A stretch of 64,000 nt of DNA from an uncultured Clostridia bacterium (GTDB lineage: Bacteria > Bacillota > Clostridia > Christensenellales > CAG-138). Position numbers and translations under genes: made by a program. Location of the stretch: the NCBI GenBank assembly GCA_947168855.1, contig CAMVNO010000006.1, positions 1 to 64,000 of the forward strand, given 5' to 3'. The notes beneath the pieces were generated by a model. The model searched no databases. It saw only the letters and a program-made list of their open reading frames with translations, and was not told the DNA's origin. How positions within the stretch are numbered: the first letter of the stretch is position 1; each line of letters starts with the position of its first letter. Of this stretch, positions 36,440-38,300 are shown in pieces.

Positions 36440-36466
36440 CATTAAAAAAGCGCCGGAAAGCCGGCG
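36440..36466 (-). terminator. Terminator of the radical SAM operon
   Basis: Minus strand TTGCGCCGGCTTTCCGGCGCTTTTTT. Confidence 0.85.
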
Positions 36467-36484
36467 CAATGGTCGATCGGCGGG

Positions 36485-37564
36485 TCAATCCAGCGGATCG
36501 TCCCGGTAATTCTTGAGAAACCGCTCGCTTCCCCGCGCATAAAGCCGCGCGGCAAGCCCGTCCGCAATCGGGATCAGAATGCGCTCGTGCTCGCACTGCA
36601 CCGGCGCGACCTCGTGCATGCTGCCGGTCAGCGAGAAGTTCAGGCAGGCGCAATGGTGTCGGCAGCGATCCGCGATCGCGCAGCCCTCGCAGTCCGGCTC
36701 CGGATCGAGCGACATGCGATAGATCGCGCGCTGCTTCTCCCGGTCGATCCCGGTTTCGACGTCGCCCATCCGGTAATCCGGATTGTCCAGAAACTGATTG
36801 CACGGATAGATCGCTCCGTCCGGCGCGATCGACGGCTGCCGCATGCCGAGCTTGCACTCGAGGCACGGACGATCGTTCAGATACGCCGCGATCTTGGACA
36901 GGAAATTCAGATACCGAAGCGGACGCGCGTCGTCAAAATGTGCCTCCATGATCTCCGCGATCCGCGCGTACTGCCGTTTGAGCTCGGCCATCGAATCGTC
37001 GTCCCATCCGGCGTCCGGGCGATAATCGATCGCCGTATTGATCCGCGAAAAACCGCGTGCATAGAGCCACTCAACCGACTCCGCCATTCTCCCGACGGTC
37101 GACGGCATGACCGTCTGCATCGCGACCGCGTTCGGCTGATATTTGAGCAGCAGGTCGACGATCGGCTCAAGCCGCGCCATCGTGGGCTTTCCGTCGCGTG
37201 TGACGCGCTGAGCGTCCTGCAGAAGCCCGTCGTGCGAGAGGGCGATCTCCAGCGCATGCTCGTTTGCAAAGCGCAGAAACGCCTCGTCAAGAAGCGTGCC
37301 GTTGGTCGTCATCTTGAACCGGATCTCCGCGCCGGCCGCCCTCGCCCTTTCAACGGCATACCGACAGACGGCTTCGACCGTGGCGCGCTCCAGCATCGGC
37401 TCGCCGCCGAACAGCGAAAAGCCGTTCTTCTCATGCCCGAACGAGAACGCCAGATCGACGGCTTTTTTTGCCGTCTGCTCCGTCATGCGGCGCTTCGCGT
37501 GCGTTTCGTAACAATAACGGCAGGCCAAATTACAGTCTGCCGTCAAATGCAAGGTGAAATTCAT
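36485..37564 (-). CDS. Radical SAM/SPASM peptide-maturase-like enzyme
   Basis: CNLACRYC (CxxxCxxC), SLFGGEPML, SPASM cysteines CLECKLGMRQPSIAPDGAIYPCNQF...CEGCAIADRCRHHCACLNFS...CEHER; 9 bp after the peptide A stop. Confidence 0.9.
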   Translation of the reverse strand: MNFTLHLTADCNLACRYCYETHAKRRMTEQTAKKAVDLAFSFGHEKNGFSLFGGEPMLERATVEAVCRYAVERARAAGAEIRFKMTTNGTLLDEAFLRFANEHALEIALSHDGLLQDAQRVTRDGKPTMARLEPIVDLLLKYQPNAVAMQTVMPSTVGRMAESVEWLYARGFSRINTAIDYRPDAGWDDDSMAELKRQYARIAEIMEAHFDDARPLRYLNFLSKIAAYLNDRPCLECKLGMRQPSIAPDGAIYPCNQFLDNPDYRMGDVETGIDREKQRAIYRMSLDPEPDCEGCAIADRCRHHCACLNFSLTGSMHEVAPVQCEHERILIPIADGLAARLYARGSERFLKNYRDDPLD

Positions 37565-37573
37565 AGTCGCTCC

Positions 37574-37915
37574 TCACGGTTCCGGCGTGTCTTCCGGCAC
37601 GGCGATTTTGCCCTGCAGCGCGGGCTCCTCGCGGCCGTCCGAATCGTCCGATCCGTCCATGATGATGTCGCCGTTCTCGTCGACGGCAGGCTCGCCCTCG
37701 AGACGCGGTTCCGGCGTCGGCTCGTCGATCATAGTCTCGCCGTCAAGCACGAGCTCGTCGGTCGGCGTCGGTTCCGCCATGATCCCGCCCATGATCTTCA
37801 GATCGCACCCGGTCGTGCCGGCAATCGCAACGGCAGCCGCAGTCGTGAGGATCGCGCCCTTCAGGATCTTTTTCGGGTAATTCGGCTTGTATGCGCCGAC
37901 TTTGCTTTGTTTCAT
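37574..37915 (-). CDS. Small putative RiPP precursor A (113 aa)
   Basis: MKQSKVGAYKPNYPKKILKGAILTTAAAVAIAGTTGCDLKIMGG...ELVLDGETMIDEPTPEPRLEGEPAVDENGD...PALQGKIAVPEDTPEP; RBS GGGAGGAG. Confidence 0.7.
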   Translation of the reverse strand: MKQSKVGAYKPNYPKKILKGAILTTAAAVAIAGTTGCDLKIMGGIMAEPTPTDELVLDGETMIDEPTPEPRLEGEPAVDENGDIIMDGSDDSDGREEPALQGKIAVPEDTPEP

Positions 37916-37916
37916 G

Positions 37917-38207
37917 TTATTCTCCTCCCGGCGGTTCAAGGATCGCCACGTCGCCCGAAAGCATCAGTTCCTCCGGCTCCGGCGTCGGTTCGTACGCAAC
38001 ATAGCCTTCTGTCTGCAGCTCCTCCGGCGGAACGGTCTCCTCAACGCCGGGCTCCTCCATCGGCACGATCCCGCTGGTCTGGACCTCAACGAAGCGGCAG
38101 CCCGCGGCGGTACCCATCGCAATCAGCGCGGCAGCCGCAAGCGTGACGCCCTTAAGCGCCTTTTTCGGGTATTTCGGCTGATAATCGGTAAGCTTTTGCT
38201 GTTTCAC
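37917..38207 (-). CDS. Small putative RiPP precursor B (96 aa, GTG start)
   Basis: (V)KQQKLTDYQPKYPKKALKGVTLAAAALIAMGTAAGCRFVEV...ELQTEGYVAYEPTPEPEELMLSGDVAILEPPGGE; RBS AAAGGAG; leader paralogous to peptide A. Confidence 0.68.
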   Translation of the reverse strand: MKQQKLTDYQPKYPKKALKGVTLAAAALIAMGTAAGCRFVEVQTSGIVPMEEPGVEETVPPEELQTEGYVAYEPTPEPEELMLSGDVAILEPPGGE

Positions 38208-38264: not shown

Positions 38265-38300
38265 CAAAAAGGGGGAACGATCGGATCGTCCCCCCCGGTT
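38265..38300 (-). terminator. Terminator of prs
   Basis: Minus strand GGGGGACGATCCGATCGTTCCCCCTTTTT. Confidence 0.8.

Follow-up and report, generated by a model that had tools for sequence, protein, structure and literature searches.

Does a minus-strand operon in an uncultured Clostridia bacterium, in which two short lipoprotein-like peptides precede a radical SAM/SPASM enzyme, produce a peptide that is enzymatically modified and then anchored in the membrane? We addressed this question in a window of 64,000 nucleotides (the whole stretch of DNA analyzed, to which all positions refer). The original prediction had described a radical-SAM RiPP-like pair with a leader resembling a lipoprotein signal and a membrane-anchored product; comparison with relatives supports this description strongly, although overall it stands only in part. 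We favor, with a probability of roughly 0.7, a radical-SAM RiPP-lipoprotein system of two components, whose enzyme would modify leader-bearing repeat peptides that Sec, Lgt, and signal peptidase II would then complete.

The operon, its leaders, and its cores

The three genes follow one another on the minus strand as peptide B, peptide A, and enzyme (Table 1), in agreement with the order, start codon, and lengths first reported. A single base separates the stop of B from the start of A, and nine bases separate the stop of A from the start of the enzyme gene. A purine-rich ribosome-binding site lies close 5′ of each gene (AAAGGAG, GGAGGAG, and GAGGAG). The claim that the operon is insulated by the prs terminator upstream and its own terminator downstream held, since both hairpins fold well. 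The prs hairpin also carries a T run. A simple terminator scan caught the downstream hairpin and missed the prs one. No sigma-70-like promoter was found before the operon by promoter scan, and an Rfam search returned no match near it. The operon is present in one copy in its own genome. Relative to homologs, dN/dS was 0.14 to 0.21 for the enzyme, 0.14 to 0.35 for the leaders, and 0.21 to 0.76 for the cores (ranges omit L032, a mis-parsed coding sequence in the wrong reading frame). Purifying selection acts on each of the three genes in these comparisons, and because the values are low, B, A, and the enzyme gene are not chance open reading frames.

Table 1. Features of the operon and its flanks, with positions in the window
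Feature	Position	Strand	Description
Intrinsic terminator of prs, upstream of operon	38265-38296	minus	Fold -21.1 kcal/mol, z -3.4
Peptide B (P0003)	37917-38207	minus	GTG start, 96 aa; precursor of lipoprotein type; E 6.5e-18 against leader HMM
Leader / lipoprotein signal peptide of B	38097-38207	minus	VKQQKLTDYQPKYPKKALKGVTLAAAALIAMGTAAGC; lipobox Cys37 by inspection
Core of B	37920-38096	minus	Repeat-like motifs VQTSGIVPM, LQTEGYVAY, LMLSGDVAI
Peptide A (P0002)	37574-37915	minus	113 aa; paralogous to B, also a precursor of lipoprotein type; E 1.6e-17 against leader HMM
Leader / lipoprotein signal peptide of A	37805-37915	minus	MKQSKVGAYKPNYPKKILKGAILTTAAAVAIAGTTGC
Core of A	37577-37804	minus	Repeat-like motifs LKIMGGIMA, LVLDGETMI, RLEGEPAV, ALQGKIAV
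Radical SAM/SPASM enzyme (P0001)	36485-37564	minus	359 aa; no N-terminal extension ahead of radical SAM core
CX3CX2C radical SAM cluster motif (C11, C15, C18)	37511-37534	minus	Invariant
SPASM region	36593-36856	minus	8 cysteines: C237, C255, C292, C295, C301, C305, C307, C324; Arg300 invariant
Intrinsic terminator 3′ of enzyme gene	36443-36467	minus	Fold -14.3 kcal/mol, z -3.1

Both peptides begin with a common leader (YQPKYPKKALKG and YKPNYPKKILKG), which consists of a positively charged n-region with Y-x-P-x-Y-P-K-K-x-L-K-G, a hydrophobic stretch, and then TGC or AGC. The shared motif (with Ala or Ile before L-K-G) and the hydrophobic stretch ending in GC had been read correctly from the start. 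The lipobox cysteine is the sole cysteine in each peptide, and with lipid attachment judged by eye from the lipobox, A and B are predicted lipoprotein precursors. Across 17 diverse leaders, Y9, P11, Y13, P14, and C37 are invariant, and a leader profile search of the whole genome, a check suggested at the outset, matched peptides A and B only. In the sister clade described below, the n-region reads Y-K-K-P-x-Y-A, compared with Y-x-P-x-Y-P in the window's clade. Lipoprotein n-regions need positive charge only; that the motif is fixed even so suggests that a second reader recognizes this signal.

Past the lipobox, the peptides are acidic, proline rich, cysteine free, and nearly free of aromatic residues: core B contains two tyrosines and lacks Cys, Trp, Phe, and His, and core A lacks Cys, Trp, Tyr, Phe, and His. 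Neither peptide matched a Pfam or NCBIfam family. The cores carry imperfect repeats with the consensus [VLI]-x-[LVI]-x-G-[DE]-[VIA]-x-[VI], most commonly E-L-x-L-D-G-E/D-V-A-V/I-D-E-P in the window's clade. In 101 nonredundant cores, a set that takes in the larger cores of the far clade, the pattern [LVI]x[LVI]xG[EDAGK][VIALT]x[VILMP] occurred 94 times, against 1.4 expected from composition-preserving shuffles. No single repeat residue is invariant, and part of the far-clade peptides lack the repeat. The initial reading had recognized the pairing of small peptides with a SPASM enzyme but overlooked both the repeats and the absence of Cys, Trp, and Phe from the cores.

This composition constrains the chemistry that could take place. 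Because the window's cores contain no cysteine, core-internal thioethers of the sactipeptide or ranthipeptide kind are excluded. Because core aromatics are nearly absent, streptide-type links are unlikely and cyclophane chemistry, for which aromatic residues would be expected in a crosslinking motif of the core, is disfavored. With Cys and Trp missing and other aromatics scarce, the likeliest sites of modification are aliphatic or acidic residues, which could form a cyclopropane, be epimerized or desaturated, or be joined by an aliphatic C-C or C-O link.

Linkage of leader and enzyme across the Clostridia

When one genome per species was scanned, 80 loci emerged from Clostridia of the rumen and gut, where relatives are widespread; at least one record looks like an isolate (Lachnospiraceae AC2028). 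The enzymes fall into a near clade comprising the window's relatives (58 to 89% identity) and a far, sister clade (37 to 42% identity) in Oscillospiraceae, Lachnospiraceae, Ruminococcus, and Saccharofermentans; metagenome-assembled genomes (MAGs) of the first three keep the same lipoprotein-then-enzyme arrangement. In practically every locus with sufficient upstream sequence, one to three leader-bearing genes lie directly 5′ of the enzyme; where a leader match is missing, the sequence ends upstream, L103 excepted. The original prediction had seen the pair, but its wide spread, its diversity, and a group with larger, folded-looking lipoproteins were overlooked.

Among 103 genomes from the family to which the window belongs, leader matches numbered 58; 55 of these were located 240 to 902 bases upstream of an enzyme gene on the same strand, and the remaining three were at contig ends. 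Enzyme and leader occurred together in 39 of these genomes, the enzyme alone in 4, the leader alone in 1, and neither in 59 (Fisher p = 1e-22, for genomes that are not phylogenetically independent). The four enzyme-only genomes comprise one contig edge, one diverged leader (G011), and two with larger lipoproteins bearing a PxYP-like n-region (G015 and G101); contig edges account for the odd genomes G059 and G076. Homologous peptides found broadly without the enzyme, an outcome named in advance as refuting the proposal, were not seen: peptides with this leader practically never occurred without it. In a class-wide sample, a strong far-type leader turned up in four genomes, each with the enzyme adjoining it.

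Could vertical inheritance by itself hold the two together, with the enzyme acting elsewhere and the peptides being ordinary lipoproteins? Synteny with prs and carD is indeed kept within the genus. However, the neighbors shift from prs and carD to recA and then to others, and the pair stays intact in genera and families where every other neighbor differs. The n-region motif is also conserved beyond positive charge and finds nothing else in the genome. We therefore regard simple co-inheritance as improbable. What the comparison does establish is that a precursor gene bearing a lipobox (by inspection) adjoins a gene for a RiPP-type modifying enzyme, an arrangement shared with RiPP-lipoprotein hybrids. 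Comparison of the neighborhoods of relatives revealed no third gene family recurring at a fixed place near the pair, confirming the initial remark that no dedicated exporter or peptidase is adjacent.

The radical SAM/SPASM enzyme

P0001 has the hallmarks of a radical SAM/SPASM maturase, namely, CX3CX2C at residues 11 to 18 and a full set of SPASM cysteines, as had been read from the sequence; Pfam detected the radical SAM domain (E 1e-16), and the SPASM match was under its cutoff. The eight SPASM cysteines are kept in both the near and the far clade and would match two fully ligated auxiliary clusters. The signature CX2CX4RCX3CXC is found in nearly all lipoprotein-linked enzymes; L189, a third-group enzyme, deviates from it and is also missing cysteines of the first auxiliary cluster, and its partner lipoproteins have LDLFD in place of LxLDGY. 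An in-frame TGA at the conserved Cys305 codon in L083 was considered as a sign of a selenoprotein and set aside: it occurs in one MAG only and a TGA in L004 hits Gly250, so sequencing error is likelier than selenocysteine. Phage copies were likewise discarded as not specific, the best being 27% identical.

Just 10 residues precede the first radical SAM cysteine of P0001, compared with 103 to 137 in ScfB-type proteins; an N-terminal RRE domain is therefore absent, in line with the first impression that there is no obvious one. An AlphaFold2 model of P0001 (pLDDT 89.3) was closest among solved folds in Foldseek to CteB (TM 0.82), anSME (0.79), and ChlB (0.79); TigE, which we take to be a cyclopropane-forming relative, gave a TM of 0.66. 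In a phylogenetic tree with ScfB as the sole outgroup, all lipoprotein-linked enzymes split from ScfB with support of 100/100. The near and far clades were each supported at 100/99, and a third group was weakly held (56/81). The lipoprotein-linked enzymes thus appear to form a clade of their own beside ScfB, the ScfB label having been assigned from family models, size, and SPASM pattern. ScfB/CteB (TIGR03974; PDB 5wgg) is accordingly both the closest solved fold to P0001 and the nearest outgroup in this tree, but ScfB proteins differ from it in their long N-terminal extension, mostly CxGGC-type SPASM cysteines, and Cys-rich SCIFF precursors.

P0001 passes no cutoff of any NCBIfam maturase model shown. 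The SCIFF model TIGR03974 gave 137.6 bits (cutoff, 425), and the N-terminal extension and Cys-rich precursor are also missing. The CXXX-repeat maturase model TIGR04115 gave 115 bits (cutoff, 350), and Cys repeats are absent here. The anSME model TIGR03942 gave 78 bits (cutoff, 349), so that the clustering with sulfatase maturases that would have spoken against the proposal was not seen. The remaining models shown left P0001 far under cutoff. Two families whose NCBIfam names liken them to this locus, TIGR04133 and TIGR04134 (a radical SAM protein with a putative lipoprotein), were tried and dropped: P0001 gives no match to TIGR04133, and the genome gives none to TIGR04134, a model that was equally silent in its controls.

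The best NCBIfam match is PapB (NF047865, 194.3 bits), and the enzyme might on this ground be taken for a PapB-type ranthipeptide maturase that makes Cys-Asp/Glu thioethers. Like P0001, PapB is a SPASM enzyme with acidic residues in its substrate; the cores here are rich in Asp and Glu, and the enzyme has an invariant Arg300, a possible counterpart of the Arg that PapB needs (PMC9413430). The match nevertheless lies far under the 340-bit cutoff, and that model gives higher scores to the ScfB-type proteins found in most Clostridia (270 to 316 bits), for which reason assignment by best match was rejected. PapB also requires a Cys-Xn-Asp/Glu motif and is considered to recognize its leader by way of an RRE domain (PMC9413430); the window's cores hold no cysteine beyond the lipobox, and P0001 has no counterpart of that domain before its core. 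We consider PapB-type chemistry very improbable here.

Proposed maturation and the larger partner lipoproteins

We propose instead that the radical-SAM RiPP-lipoprotein system works as follows. Without the aid of an RRE domain, the enzyme would bind the n-region that is conserved among these lipoprotein signal peptides, and it would modify the repeats several times in the cytoplasm. Sec export, lipidation of the lipobox cysteine by Lgt, and removal of the leader by signal peptidase II would come next. The signal peptide would in this way also serve as the leader, and signal peptidase II would act as the leader peptidase. A dedicated exporter or peptidase would not be needed because these three general components supply export and leader removal. 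The outcome would be a peptide with modified repeats, anchored by its lipid on the outer side of the membrane. Action of the enzyme on the peptides, the n-region as recognition site, the repeats as target, and this order of events are what we infer from the arrangement and conservation of the locus.

Parts of this scheme are known separately, in RiPP-lipoprotein hybrids made by MNIO enzymes and in radical-SAM RiPPs with repeated cores. In the MNIO hybrids DybA/DybH and NedA, as proposed here, the lipoprotein signal is the leader and cytoplasmic modification precedes Lgt and signal peptidase II; the signal-peptide-leader route of DybA and NedA works in E. coli, and NedA has repeated core motifs like those of the window's cores (PMC12636315). 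That study mined MNIO clusters only, in which the MNIO acts on cysteine-containing motifs, whereas the present locus pairs a radical SAM/SPASM enzyme with cysteine-free cores. The poly-cyclopropylglycine RiPP of TvgA/TvgB offers the other parallel, a radical SAM/SPASM enzyme whose precursor repeats a motif containing Gly, and a repeated motif is present in the precursors here; TvgB modifies its repeat repeatedly, on an aliphatic residue (PMC9062424). That system has TVGG repeats, a partner oxygenase, and exporters, and a lipoprotein signal was not among the features described (PMC9062424). A search of open-license papers found no described radical SAM RiPP-lipoprotein. The combination of a lipoprotein-type leader with a radical SAM enzyme that has no RRE extension at its N terminus, and with cores of such composition, was not found in the libraries and open papers searched. 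If the scheme is correct, the RiPP-lipoprotein idea would extend from MNIO to radical SAM enzymes, and a Sec signal peptide could serve as the leader for a maturase that lacks an RRE. The locus further suggests chemistry on cores that have neither cysteine nor tryptophan and hence cannot form the usual radical-SAM crosslinks. The chances seem evenly balanced that we are dealing with a whole radical SAM/SPASM family devoted to lipoproteins, with RRE-free reading of the signal n-region, an undescribed modification on aliphatic or acidic repeat residues, and modified lipopeptides displayed on the surface of Clostridia of the rumen and gut.

Larger partners raise the question of whether the enzyme is instead a general maturase of envelope lipoproteins, installing a structural modification as anSME does in sulfatases and QhpD in quinohemoprotein amine dehydrogenase, with the short repeat peptides as stripped-down members. 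In the class-wide sample, the third group pairs with lipoproteins of 210 to 270 aa that have a Y-x-x-P-x-Y-P-like n-region and a conserved C-terminal region. These hold only one motif similar to the repeats, LxLDGY, and the true target might for that reason lie elsewhere. Several far-clade partners have a well-predicted C-terminal domain, and in one far-clade genome a lipoprotein bearing the same leader is encoded apart from the enzyme. In the window's clade, by contrast, the partners are short and of low complexity, their repeat number varies, and their paralogues multiply, as in RiPP cores; moreover, the larger partners match no known domain or fold. On this evidence a general maturase is possible but doubtful, and the RiPP-lipoprotein reading is retained.

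Partner lipoproteins of the Ruminococcus type (L072, L068, L070, L093, L096, L100, L090, and L075) have a C-terminal domain (model residues 105 to 238) that AlphaFold2 folds confidently; an attempt to derive its function was abandoned, as Foldseek gave nothing with E below 0.001 and no PDB match. Four further lipoproteins (L140, L141, L186, and L187), which matched no Pfam or NCBIfam family, share a conserved HG-x-GRGxxGCxSVAxPVFLSEEEA segment and a LREQVRDFLxWLAxEGII-like tail. L192 (G160:C13:50500-52500, minus strand) is a 241-aa lipoprotein that has a YAGE motif and whose leader is of the far type (KKPLYALGAS...MSGC); it is unlinked to the enzyme locus and may be a substrate in trans. At L142, a lipoprotein-like protein with KPVIYLYPEKP lies 3′, not 5′, of a gene for a 38%-identical enzyme.
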